Part shown: piece after piece, positions 12,556 to 56,351 of the stretch
Numbering within the stretch: the stretch's first letter is position 1
How the letters are laid out: each line of letters starts with the position of its first letter
Assembly (NCBI GenBank): GCA_025916135.1
Contig: CP104793.1
Coordinates: 62,001 to 126,000, forward strand
Length of the DNA: 64,000 nucleotides
From: Rhodobacteraceae bacterium D3-12
GTDB taxonomy: Bacteria; Pseudomonadota; Alphaproteobacteria; Rhodobacterales; Rhodobacteraceae
Direction: 5' to 3'
Notes under the pieces: generated by a model
What the model was told of the DNA's origin: nothing
The model's database searches: none
The model's input: the letters and a program-made list of their open reading frames with translations, nothing else
Position numbers and translations under genes: made by a program

Positions 12556-12680
12556 CCAAGGCTCGCTGCGGGGTGTTCCCGCCGGATTTGCGCGCGTGTG
12601 GAGGTGGGGCGCATTTGGATTTGGCAGTTGGGTGATGGGGGCGAGCGGGTCATGAGGGTTTTGGCCAAGAAAGAGCGGTT

Positions 12681-12733
12681 GGGGTGATTGGGGTGATTGG
12701 GGTGATTGGGGTGATTGGGGTGATTGGGGTGAT
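12681..12733. repeat. 9-bp tandem repeat (GGGGTGATT)n
   Basis: Five exact GGGGTGATT units and a sixth ending in G, in the gap between the double-GNAT gene and cobN. Being a multiple of three it keeps a frame open on the minus strand (a Pro-Gln-Ser repeat), which I do not think is translated. Confidence 0.85.
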
Positions 12734-37548: not shown

Positions 37549-37590
37549 TTTTGCCGATCTCTGCACCGTGATGGCTGGGAGATGGCTGAG

Positions 37591-37634
37591 TGATGTCTGG
37601 GTGATGTCTGGGCGATGTCTGGGTGATGTCTGGG
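37591..37634. repeat. 11-bp minisatellite (T/C)GATGTCTGGG x4
   Basis: Four contiguous 11-mers, the third beginning with C. It is the third 11-bp-period array in the window and lies 42 bases from the two-hairpin element. Confidence 0.85.
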
Positions 37635-53230: not shown

Positions 53231-53557
53231 ATGCTGGATATAACGGTTCACAAGATTGCACAGGTGATTCTTATGTCGCGGGAGTTGAACCGCGCCGAGG
53301 GGGAGCTTCGCGGGTTTATCGACAATCTGACCGAAGACGAGCAAGTGAGCCTTGTTGCGGTGATGTGGATCGGGCGTGAGAGCTTTGCTGCAGACGAATT
53401 GGAGGAAGCCAAGCGCACGGCGGCGGCCGAAGCGACGATTCCCACAGCCGATTACCTGATCGGGACGCCGCATTTGTCGGATCATCTTGAAAACGGGCTG
53501 GATGAGTTGGGTCTTTCGGCGTCAGATGATGAGGATGACCTCGTTCGCGGGGGGTAA
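53231..53557 (+). CDS. DUF3775 family protein
   Basis: A 108-residue cytoplasmic protein: MLDITVHKIAQVILMSRELN, then an acidic region (FIDNLTEDEQVSLVAVMWIGRESF), EEAKRTAAAEATIPTADYLIGTPHLSDHLENGLDELG, and an acidic tail. This matches the DUF3775 pattern of small alphaproteobacterial proteins with no assigned function. AGGAG at 53219 precedes ATG 53231. The upstream 208-base gap shows no gene. Confidence 0.85.
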   Translation: MLDITVHKIAQVILMSRELNRAEGELRGFIDNLTEDEQVSLVAVMWIGRESFAADELEEAKRTAAAEATIPTADYLIGTPHLSDHLENGLDELGLSASDDEDDLVRGG

Positions 53558-53769: not shown

Positions 53770-53823
53770 CATTTCAAATTCCGTGAGCGCACACAAAGCC
53801 GCGAGTGTGTGTGTTTTGAAATG
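53770..53823. promoter_or_regulatory. large two-tier inverted repeat upstream of the secreted-protein array
   Basis: The outer arms CATTTCAAA (53770-53778) and TTTGAAATG are perfect. Inside them CACACA faces TGTGTG. It lies about 95 bases before the first of the four repeated genes, in the 361-base gap after the DUF3775 gene. It could be an operator, the 3' end of the upstream transcript, or a 5'-UTR structure; the sequence alone does not say. Confidence 0.5.
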
Positions 53824-53918
53824 TGAGCGGTTGGTTGTCATATTGGTTGCAGATCGAACGACACGATTTGAACAACACACCATGGACTTCGGTCCGGACA
53901 GTTTGAAAGGACAATGAA

Positions 53919-54173
53919 ATGAAACTTGCAATCGCAACATTCTCGACCGCCCTCGTATTGGCCACTGGCGCATCCGCCATGGTTGGCACCTATGAACGTG
54001 CCGTGAACGAGGCGCCCGCGTCGAGCAGCTTGTTCACCACCGGCGAGCAGGAAGTGGTTTCGAACACCGCTTCGACCAGCCCCGGCGCGGAATACAACAA
54101 CGGTGAAGCCAAAGTGATCACCGTGTTTGAGAACGACAACGCTGGCCAGTTCATGGGTGCTGCTGCGCGCTAA
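53919..54173 (+). CDS. small secreted protein, array copy 1
   Basis: 84 residues: a signal peptide of about 20 residues (MKLAIATFSTALVLATGASA) and a mature part of 64 residues beginning MVGTYERAVNEAP. The mature part is polar, without Cys, and ends FENDNAGQFMGAAAR. I do not recognise the family. The signal peptide differs from copies 2-4 (LAIATFSTALVLA in place of LTIATLATAALFA), while the mature region is identical to copies 2 and 3. The ribosome-binding site is GAAAGGACA. Confidence 0.88.
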   Translation: MKLAIATFSTALVLATGASAMVGTYERAVNEAPASSSLFTTGEQEVVSNTASTSPGAEYNNGEAKVITVFENDNAGQFMGAAAR

Positions 54174-54238
54174 GACAAGCGCCCGCCCATCGAACTTGAA
54201 ACCGACACAGACTTATTTCTCTTGAAAGGAGAAACCCG

Positions 54239-54493
54239 ATGAAACTGACGATTGCCACACTCGCAACCGCCGCCCTTTTTGCCACTGGTGCTTCGGCCAT
54301 GGTTGGCACCTATGAACGTGCTGTGAACGAGGCGCCTGCTTCGAGCAGCCTTTTCACCACCGGCGAGCAGGAAGTGGTTTCGAACACCGCTTCGACCAGC
54401 CCCGGCGCGGAATACAACAACGGTGAAGCCAAAGTGATCACCGTGTTTGAGAACGACAACGCTGGCCAGTTCATGGGTGCTGCTGCGCGCTGA
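54239..54493 (+). CDS. small secreted protein, array copy 2
   Basis: 84 residues, signal peptide MKLTIATLATAALFATGASA and the same mature sequence as copy 1. It starts exactly 320 bases after copy 1. GAAAGGAGAAA lies before the start, and the 65-base spacer is identical to the next two spacers. It uses TGA where the other copies use TAA. Confidence 0.88.
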   Translation: MKLTIATLATAALFATGASAMVGTYERAVNEAPASSSLFTTGEQEVVSNTASTSPGAEYNNGEAKVITVFENDNAGQFMGAAAR

Positions 54494-54558
54494 GACAAGC
54501 GCCCGCCCATCGAACTTGAAACCGACACAGACTTATTTCTCTTGAAAGGAGAAACCCG

Positions 54559-54813
54559 ATGAAACTGACTATTGCCACACTCGCAACCGCCGCCCTTTTT
54601 GCCACTGGTGCTTCGGCCATGGTTGGCACCTATGAACGTGCTGTGAACGAGGCGCCCGCGTCGAGCAGCCTTTTCACCACCGGCGAGCAGGAAGTGGTTT
54701 CGAACACCGCTTCGACCAGCCCCGGCGCGGAATACAACAACGGTGAAGCCAAAGTGATCACCGTGTTTGAGAACGACAACGCTGGCCAGTTCATGGGTGC
54801 TGCTGCGCGCTAA
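54559..54813 (+). CDS. small secreted protein, array copy 3
   Basis: Protein identical to copy 2 and again 320 bases further on. At DNA level it is mosaic: most silent sites follow copy 2, but the CCCGCG codon pair near residue 33 follows copy 1. No promoter is evident in the short spacer, so the four genes are probably one transcript. Confidence 0.88.
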   Translation: MKLTIATLATAALFATGASAMVGTYERAVNEAPASSSLFTTGEQEVVSNTASTSPGAEYNNGEAKVITVFENDNAGQFMGAAAR

Positions 54814-54878
54814 GACAAGCGCCCGCCCATCGAACTTGAAACCGACACAGACTTATTTCTCTTGAAAGGAGAAACCCG

Positions 54879-55133
54879 ATGAAACTGACTATTGCAACAC
54901 TCGCCACCGCCGCCCTTTTTGCCACTGGCGCATCCGCCATGGTTGGCACCTATGAACGTGCCGTGAACGAGGCGCCTGCCGCGAGCAGCCTGTTCACCAC
55001 CGGCGAGCAGGAAGTGGTTTCGAACACCGCTTCGACCAGCCCCGGTGCGGAATACAACAACGGTGAAGCCAAAGTGATCACCGTGTTTGAGAACGACAAC
55101 GCTGGCCAGTTCATGGGCGCCGCTGCGCGCTAA
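54879..55133 (+). CDS. small secreted protein, array copy 4
   Basis: As copies 2-3 apart from Ala for Ser in EAPAASS. Silent sites around the signal-peptide cleavage region (GGCGCATCCGCC, GTGCCGTG) match copy 1 rather than copies 2-3, which points to exchange between copies. A strong terminator follows at 55156. Confidence 0.88.
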   Translation: MKLTIATLATAALFATGASAMVGTYERAVNEAPAASSLFTTGEQEVVSNTASTSPGAEYNNGEAKVITVFENDNAGQFMGAAAR

Positions 55134-55155
55134 GGCTTTGCCACGTAAATAAAAA

Positions 55156-55180
55156 ACGCCCGGAGCGATGCTCTGGGCGT
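55156..55180. terminator. bidirectional terminator after the array
   Basis: ACGCCCGGAGC/GCTCTGGGCGT (one wobble), GAT loop, AAAAA on the left and TTTTCGTTTT on the right. It lies between the convergent array and the saccharopine dehydrogenase gene. Confidence 0.92.
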
Positions 55181-55223
55181 TTTTCGTTTTAAGGGTGTCT
55201 GACGGCTTTGTTAGACGCCTGAA

Positions 55224-56351
55224 TTAGACGGCTGTGACGATCTGCATGTGTTGCGCCAGCGTGTCGATTTCGGACAGCCAGCGATCCAGCAGCTTCGGAT
55301 CGGAGGGCGCGGCGGAGACGCCGGCGGGGATCTCGCGGTTGAGCACAGATTCGATGGCCAGCGACACCGGCACCGAAACGAGCCGCGCCATAGCGGTGCC
55401 GCGTTCATCGCCCCACGCGTCCATCACATAGGTTTTGTCCCAGACCGGCGTGCCGTCGGCTTCGGCTTTGAGACCAACGCAGAGAATAACGCGGTCGGCT
55501 TCGCCCTCGTCATAGGCGTTTTCGGTGAGAAGCTTGTCGGCGATTTCCTGAAGGCGGGCGTCGCTCGCGGTTCCGACCTCGGCGAAGATGTCGGACCACG
55601 CATCGGCCCAGCCGTTGAGGCGCAGGGTGCCGCGCACGAATTCCTTGACCGGCCACTCGGGTGAGAAGCCGTAGTCTTCCATGAAGGGAAGCGAGTCGCG
55701 GTTTGGATAGACCTCGAAGCTTTCGGGGGTGGGCAGGGGCGCGTCATAGCGGCGGATCGCATCCCATGGTTGGCTTACGTTCAGCTCGGAAAAGTTGCGG
55801 ATCGAGCGCGACGGGGAGCGGAGCGCCTTGAGCACGCCGACCGGGGCCCATGAGAACTTGTAGCGAAAGGCGTTGGCCTGTTTCGGGACGCCGCCGCAAT
55901 AGGACAGGAAGCTGATTGTGTTGTCGGGCGCGTAGGCATCCGAGGCGCGGTAGTCGGCCACGAGTTTATGCGCCATGAGGTGGTCGATACCGGGATCGAG
56001 GCCGACTTCGTTGACGAAGGACAGGCCAGCGGCGCGGGCCTTGCTATCAAGCGCTTTCATCTCGGGCGAGATATAGGAGGAGGAGACGAAGTGGGCCTCT
56101 TGCGTGAGGCACATTTCGGCCAGAGCGACATGCCAGTCGCCGGGCAGCATGGAGACAACGATGTCGCCCTTGGCGGTGGCCGCGGCGAGCGCATCGAGGT
56201 CAAAGGCGCGGATGTCGGTGGCGATGTCGCCAACCGCGTCGCGGGCTTTTTCCACGGTCCGGTTCCAGACGGTGACGGGGTGGCCTGCGTCGATCAGGCG
56301 GCGGAGGCCGGGAATGGAAGAGAAGCCGGTGCCGCACCAGTGAATAGTCAT
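55224..56351 (-). CDS. saccharopine dehydrogenase family protein (glutamate-forming, LYS9-like)
   Basis: A 375-residue Rossmann-type dehydrogenase. The N-terminal nucleotide site is MTIHWCGTGFSSIPGLRRLIDAGHPVTVWNR. SMLPGDWHVALAEMCL, HFVSSSYISPEMKALDSKARAAGLSFVNEVGLDPGIDHLMAH (about 89-130) is the family's core, and FLSYCGGVPKQANAFRYKFSWAPVG follows. It would convert saccharopine to 2-aminoadipate semialdehyde and glutamate. It overlaps the LYS1-like gene by 4 bases, so the pair can catabolise lysine. Confidence 0.9.
   Translation of the reverse strand: MTIHWCGTGFSSIPGLRRLIDAGHPVTVWNRTVEKARDAVGDIATDIRAFDLDALAAATAKGDIVVSMLPGDWHVALAEMCLTQEAHFVSSSYISPEMKALDSKARAAGLSFVNEVGLDPGIDHLMAHKLVADYRASDAYAPDNTISFLSYCGGVPKQANAFRYKFSWAPVGVLKALRSPSRSIRNFSELNVSQPWDAIRRYDAPLPTPESFEVYPNRDSLPFMEDYGFSPEWPVKEFVRGTLRLNGWADAWSDIFAEVGTASDARLQEIADKLLTENAYDEGEADRVILCVGLKAEADGTPVWDKTYVMDAWGDERGTAMARLVSVPVSLAIESVLNREIPAGVSAAPSDPKLLDRWLSEIDTLAQHMQIVTAV

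Follow-up and report, generated by a model that had tools for sequence, protein, structure and literature searches.

An array of four tandem genes for one small exported protein of no named family was found in the genome of Rhodobacteraceae bacterium D3-12. Its best explanation, to which we assign a probability of about one half on sequence grounds, is a stress-induced, disordered, Sec-exported envelope protein that is transcribed by RpoH and has been amplified in this genome. Directly seen in the sequence are the array and its protein family, a promoter motif common with clpB and a Do-family protease gene, a conserved leader, and a hypervariable mature part in which certain motifs are fixed. 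The initial annotation took the array to look like the dosage amplification of an abundantly exported polypeptide; this picture changes with a promoter resembling those of heat-shock genes, the hypervariability of the mature part and a C-terminal arginine.

The window analysed here is a stretch of 64,000 nucleotides (contig CP104793.1, positions 62,001 to 126,000). As annotated, it holds four open reading frames of 84 codons each on the forward strand, spaced exactly 320 bp from start to start (Table 1), and an AAGGA-type ribosome-binding site lies immediately 5' of every copy. Tandem Repeats Finder returns a period of 320 with 3.7 copies, 96% matches and 0% indels (score 2187), the full 320-bp repeats being copies 2-4 only. 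Copies 2-4 have common signal-peptide residues and an identical 65-base spacer; copy 1 differs from them at 6 of 20 signal-peptide residues and at 48 of 65 bases of the upstream stretch, and its signal peptide is closest to that of a single-copy relative (G001, 90%). The mature parts (residues 21-84, 64 residues) are identical in copies 1-3, and copy 4 deviates by S35A only, exactly as first described. Nine mature sites vary across the array, eight of them silently, the remaining one being S35A; one stop codon varies as well. Neutral change would be expected to alter the protein at about 70-77% of sites, compared with one of the nine observed (p of about 0.001 or less by our own arithmetic, the sites being non-independent through shared descent and conversion). 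Copy 4 matches copy 1 at gene sites 51, 54, 57 and 84, and at 11 of the 13 earlier variable sites it agrees with copies 2/3 or carries copy-2-type bases. This mosaic indicates that the copies exchanged sequence and, together with the eight silent sites, that one product is kept uniform within the array. Copy-specific silent sites, the mosaic copy 4 and arrays in two other genomes argue against an assembly artefact. The four copies are the sole ones in the 4,495,761-base single-contig genome and, lying head to tail with homogenised sequence, appear to form a tandem gene array produced by recent duplication. The window also contains a perfect 9-base tandem repeat, TTGGGGTGA, in 6.1 copies at 12679-12733, possibly a variable-number repeat, and an 11-base tandem repeat, GTGATGTCTGG, in 6.1 copies with 87% matches at 37568-37634.

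Table 1. Features of the array and its surroundings (positions in the window).
Feature	Position	Strand	Details
Left flank, DUF3775 (PF12616)	53231-53557	+	Pfam E 2.6e-29; conserved at the locus
Predicted RpoH-type promoter	53815-53843	+	TTTGAA (53815-53820), N16, GTCATAT (53837-53843)
Predicted 5'-terminal transcript hairpin	53852-53868	+	GATCG..CGATT (GATCG-N7-CGATT); by folding
Copy 1	53919-54173	+	84 aa; signal peptide codons 1-20 at 53919-53978
Spacer with ribosome-binding site AAAGGAG	54174-54238	+	65 bases; same sequence preceding copies 2, 3 and 4
Copy 2	54239-54493	+	84 aa; stop TGA
Copy 3	54559-54813	+	84 aa; protein identical to copy 2
Copy 4	54879-55133	+	84 aa; S35A; mosaic, its silent alleles partly copy-1-like and partly copy-2/3-like
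Strong terminator hairpin	55152-55184	+	15 pairs, loop GAT; -25.5 kcal/mol, z -5.23
Right flank, saccharopine dehydrogenase-like (PF16653/PF03435)	55224-56351	-	Pfam E 5.5e-40; conserved; convergent to the array

The predicted promoter lies upstream of copy 1. Among 15 aligned regions 5' of each unit's first gene, 14 carry [CT]TTG[ACT]A, exactly 16 bases, two further bases and CATN[TC]. When two G077 regions are added, 14 of 17 family upstream regions contain the promoter (TTTGAA-N16-nnCATnT) versus 0.005 per shuffled set, with a spacing of 16 in all 14; the three that are without the motif are G597, which has a variant, and both G077 regions. In R. sphaeroides, TTG at -36 to -34, C-13, A-12, T-11 and T-9 matter in RpoHI-dependent promoters (PMC3441632). 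With the T of the family promoters set to -9, their TTG occupies -36 to -34 and their C-A-T -13 to -11, which are the key positions of RpoHI. The RpoH1 motif of S. meliloti is CTTGAA-N15-16-CCTATAT (PMC4843759), and the putative -35 and -10 elements of the 14 family promoters, 16 bases apart, carry RpoH bases. Upstream of the rpoH gene of the array's own genome, where one gene scores above the rpoH model cut-off, we find CTTGAA-N16-CCTATCT, and searching this genome for YTTGAA-N18-CATNTT yields 8 sites, the reversed control giving 2. Four of the eight precede genes, namely the array, clpB, a Do-family (DegP/HtrA) protease (TIGR02037 at 405.7 bits, just below the cut-off of 416.2) and an unnamed 152-aa protein; the other four fall within open reading frames, one of them 168 bases before rsfS. 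Taken together, the sequence makes it probable that the array promoter is under RpoH control.

The same bases can be read differently, as an ordinary alphaproteobacterial sigma-70 promoter (TTGAAA-N17-CATATT, 9 of 12 positions) that would express a housekeeping envelope protein constitutively. Many alphaproteobacterial sigma-70 promoters are without the T at -7 (PMC8407463), and codon use in the array is near that of ribosomal genes. Still, the would-be -10 hexamer begins with C, never T, in 14 of 14 aligned promoters, as RpoH elements do, and the pattern is common to clpB and the Do protease, so that we regard constitutive expression as improbable. Against a stress reading count the possible sigma-70 reading itself, the three family upstream regions without the motif, the groESL operon of the array's own genome, which has no match to the RpoH motif used, and the four genomic sites inside open reading frames. 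An inverted repeat at this operon (L195 about 600-760) looks like a CIRCE element.

Across 394 family genomes, the long form of the promoter with at most three mismatches occurs at 22 sites in 21 genomes, the reversed control giving none. A small exported protein follows each of the ten sites that have 0-2 mismatches, also in G378 and G408, which the protein profiles had missed; the promoter signature thus finds members that escape protein searches. The other 12 of the 22 sites, with three mismatches, have no protein of the array's kind downstream, which counts against the stress reading. One such site precedes a phasin gene (Phasin_2) in G307 (L103 1588-2031) and another an apparent small lipoprotein in G340 (L093). 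A DUF1127 gene was considered as co-regulated at a promoter-like site of G329 and rejected, there being no Pfam match. A stricter promoter pattern also matched upstream of a putative ectA, and a close variant with a spacing of 17 (L069 1501-1534, minus strand) is found some 100 bases 5' of an ectA-like gene and has a putative MarR-like gene on its other side.

At the RNA level, a short hairpin near the predicted start (+1 at 53852, placed by R. sphaeroides RpoH numbering) is predicted for most relatives, its stems differing in G095a and G378, whereas G120 has none; since z-scores and energies are weak for most relatives, a conserved 5'-terminal hairpin is to be taken as a lead. The Shine-Dalgarno sequences of copies 2-4 lie inside a predicted 8-pair hairpin (54216-54234 and the equivalent positions before copies 3 and 4). 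An RNA thermometer in the 65-base spacers was nevertheless rejected, as this hairpin is calculated to be closed from 15 to 45 °C (Shine-Dalgarno unpaired 0.09-0.10) and the spacers fold no better than shuffles. An Rfam-type element was likewise discarded, the best matches having E-values of 0.51 and 0.53, far below gathering. The strong terminator reported to close the array is borne out by folding and located between copy 4 and the convergent saccharopine dehydrogenase gene; a simple terminator scan did not pick it up.

That the protein belongs to no named family holds for all libraries searched. Three array copies tested against Pfam and NCBIfam gave no family at E<=1, and for 17 aligned members the best E-values were 0.023 in Pfam, 0.066 in NCBIfam and 0.018 in PHROGs, each in a single member, with none in PADLOC. 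A PDB sequence-profile search returned two matches (E 0.55 and 0.77), both confined to the signal peptide, and no report of the array protein or its neighbours was found in the open-access papers searched with the terms used. Protein searches found the family in 3 of 61 genomes (the array's own and relatives). Of 394 Rhodobacteraceae genomes, a five-row profile matched 8 at E<=0.001 and 22 at E<=0.1, and of 390 genomes of the order a ten-row profile matched 7 at E<=0.001 and 11 at E<=0.01; G087, G120, G286 and G597 match the profile weakly (E 3e-5 to 0.0016), and the membership of G378 and G408 is based on promoter and locus. Scanning genome contigs with a single array protein produced no match; the profile as query found four loci, two in the Rhodobacteraceae MAG S24.Bin137, one in Marimonas lutisalis and one in M. 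arenosa, the latter two corresponding to the G095 and G399 members. Homologues are restricted to a few genera of Rhodobacteraceae. Cargo of a mobile element was rejected, as there was no match among 72,556 plasmid and 50,697 phage records and no relative on viral contigs. The copy number in relatives, proposed as a check in the initial annotation, varies: two genomes have tandem copies of their own, the MAG with two in tandem (306 bases apart) and one elsewhere, and G077 with a tandem pair and, in addition, a 164-aa protein in which a module is repeated internally, while G095 has two dispersed copies and the other member genomes one each.

Homologues are often found at the DUF3775/saccharopine-dehydrogenase locus. 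DUF3775 is present in 122 of 198 family genomes, and we inspected 112 stretches around it, adding G378, G408, G286 and G001 as known carriers; both flanks were inside the fetched stretch in 36 loci. No gene lies between the flanks in 23 of these (gap up to 181 bases), a small exported open reading frame ending in Arg in seven (six family members and one in G087), and none or unrelated genes in six. From this distribution, part of the family appears to have acquired the gene at this site. The G087 protein (L125 about 500-880) is a different acidic exported protein of 127 aa that ends in Arg, with the promoter absent and family membership not established. At the DUF3775-saccharopine dehydrogenase junction of G068 (L019) are two short open reading frames that we take to resemble DUF1127 proteins, and no further convincing open reading frame was found between the array and its flanks. 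The family gene also occurs at other loci (MAG, G401), where the neighbours are presumably nor genes (norB, norQ, norD and a norE-like gene) and a DUF1013-like gene.

Restriction to a few genera and the many empty loci would suit a young orphan gene that is under weak constraint, has little effect and was multiplied by chance, with only promoter and signal peptide conserved, and so would an omega of about 1 in one pair (see below). On the other side, nearly all variable mature sites in the array are silent, the C-terminal Arg and a V-T-V-F-like strand are retained in strongly diverged members, and gene and promoter stay together across genera; we consider an orphan of this kind quite unlikely.

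The mature part evolves in a way different from the rest of the locus. Compared with copy 1, in seven genomes the flanking proteins keep 69-91% identity, the signal peptides 45-90% and the mature parts 14-41%. In the syntenic MAG/G401 pair, dS is 0.37 and dN 0.371 for the mature part (omega 1.01), as against dS 0.18-0.42 and omega 0.07-0.13 for five neighbour genes, and the signal peptide has a dS of 0.06. Compared in steps of 30 bases, MAG copies 1 and 3 keep 90-100% identity throughout the interval -120 to +90, beyond which no step exceeds 67%. From this pattern of conserved leader and divergent mature part it follows that the latter changes fast by point change and probably also by exchange, with borders near the end of the leader. 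An omega of about 1, unusual for a housekeeping stress factor and hence a point against the stress reading, is not general across the family, since other mature pairs have values below 1 (MAG copies 1/3, dN 0.39 and dS 0.92; G077a/b, 0.31 and 0.83). The array shows the opposite partition to the MAG, its leader being diverged and its mature part homogenised. The proposed dosage amplification of an abundant product is thus upheld in part: the uniform product fits it in the array's own genome, but abundance is not borne out, codon adaptation being only moderately high (0.66-0.68 with ten genes from the ribosomal-protein region as reference; rank 42-48 among 57 background ORFs). It fails as a general explanation for the family, as the tandem and dispersed MAG copies, having diverged, share 52-57% identity in the mature part (omega 0.4-1.0), so that amplification there is not simple dosage.

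Such divergence raises the question whether the protein is a secreted effector that diversifies in bacterial competition or recognition, either bacteriocin-like or a bait for phages or grazers; its leader would export a mature part engaged in an arms race, and its copies would be amplified when a variant pays. The mature omega of the G401/MAG pair beside that of its neighbours at similar dS, the low mature identity between well-kept flanks, the sharp drop after the 5' block of MAG copies 1 and 3 and the extra copies in G095, G077 and the MAG all speak for it. However, at the loci inspected no immunity-like partner gene adjoins the copies, the array itself being flanked by DUF3775 and saccharopine dehydrogenase; the protein is neither cationic nor Cys-rich, a promoter of RpoH type common with clpB and the Do protease is untypical of bacteriocins, and the array copies are kept identical. 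An effector role thus appears unlikely. Somewhat less doubtful, and offered tentatively, is a joint reading in which promoter, transcript start, signal peptide and the first ~10 mature residues form a fixed cassette in which even silent sites are nearly all conserved, whereas the remainder of the mature chain diversifies with omega about 1 around V-T-V-F and the C-terminal Arg. The product might then be a stress-triggered exported ligand under diversifying selection, its mature part subsequently made either different from copy to copy, as in the MAG, or uniform in an array of identical copies, as in D3-12, a design for which the families searched offer no counterpart.

The mature chain has 64 residues (6.6 kDa, pI 4.2, GRAVY -0.35, no Cys). 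By inspection and a crude rule, export through Sec and signal peptidase I is predicted from a basic n-region, a hydrophobic core and an AxA site, with no lipobox. Structure prediction, also suggested initially, was carried out on the mature part: AlphaFold2 with seven sequences gave a low-confidence model (mean pLDDT 51.8) whose one weak helix spans residues 4-11, a shallow-alignment result that favours, but does not prove, a disordered chain. Fixed features are a Y-x-R motif near the start of the mature part, a V-T-V-F-like strand (V-x-[FY] type) about 15-20 residues before the C-terminus, and the C-terminal Arg, found in 21 of 22 family proteins (the four array copies, G001, G010, G095a/b, G399, G401, three of the MAG, G077a/b, G087, G120, G286, G378, G408, G597 and the 164-aa G077 protein, which is the exception), all picked by profile or promoter and not by this residue. 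The 164-aa protein (L042 2235-2729, minus strand) carries the mature module twice, together with repeated NGPRG motifs. Prc/Tsp has a preference for nonpolar tails, even if not every known Prc substrate has such a tail (PMC7481392), so that the charged C-terminus may disfavour tail-specific proteolysis.

The beta-prone V-T-V-F segment in an otherwise disordered chain containing Asn, Ser and Gly could instead point to an extracellular or surface structural protein of the matrix or functional-amyloid type, in which this strand self-assembles and several copies give bulk; tandem copies and the repeated module of the 164-aa G077 protein would agree with it. Yet the neighbourhoods read contain no curli-like chaperone or secretion partners, the 64 residues are without an internal repeat signature, and neither a PDB sequence match nor more than a low-confidence model was obtained, so that we hold a structural role to be very unlikely.

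We therefore return to the stress-induced envelope protein. Here, a lineage-restricted family of small, acidic, Sec-exported and probably intrinsically disordered proteins would be transcribed from a single promoter of the RpoH (heat-shock sigma factor) type within a protein-quality stress response. In D3-12 the gene would have been duplicated into a four-gene unit with one promoter, one message and one terminator, and gene conversion together with purifying selection would hold the mature product uniform and thereby raise its dosage. After export to the periplasm or the outside, the mature chain would most likely, among several options, use short linear motifs to serve an envelope quality-control factor as its ligand, activator or sacrificial client. 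A candidate partner would be, e.g., the Do-family PDZ protease with the same promoter pattern. As the motif precedes both clpB and this protease, a role in envelope protein quality is the most economical guess. If the RpoH link is true, an exported disordered protein joins the alphaproteobacterial heat-shock response, and the promoter signature points to a stimulus that can be tested, RpoH stress. Small exported proteins whose rapid evolution keeps them out of family libraries have received little study, and the present family offers a compact case in which one lineage homogenises an array and another diversifies it.

Among known systems, bacteriocin and RiPP precursors are peptide families with a conserved leader and a hypervariable core. 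The array family resembles them in its conserved 5' part, its rapidly changing 3' part and its multiple copies, whereas it has a Sec signal peptide as leader, lacks adjoining genes for modification, immunity or transport, and yields an acidic product of 64 residues. YjfN of Escherichia coli, a DegP activator of the DUF1471 family, is a small periplasmic protein tied to envelope proteolysis and stress that acts through a hydrophobic C-terminal residue. Its overexpression restored high-temperature growth of a strain lacking six prolyl isomerases in a screen (PMC7461557). Membership of the array protein in this family was rejected, as it has no Pfam or NCBIfam match, and hence none to DUF1471, and 21 of 22 members end in Arg, the opposite of a hydrophobic residue and a point that also counts against the proposed mechanism; its tandem array and RpoH-type promoter are further differences. 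As a small, predicted exported and probably stress-linked envelope protein, the array product would resemble YjfN by its design but not by its sequence. The ccaF1-CcsR genes of Rhodobacter are small stress genes under an RpoHI/RpoHII promoter (PMC10253847). CcaF1 is an RNA-binding DUF1127 protein, whereas the array product carries a signal peptide and does not match DUF1127; common to both is a small open reading frame behind an RpoH-type promoter, in a unit that ends with an intrinsic terminator.
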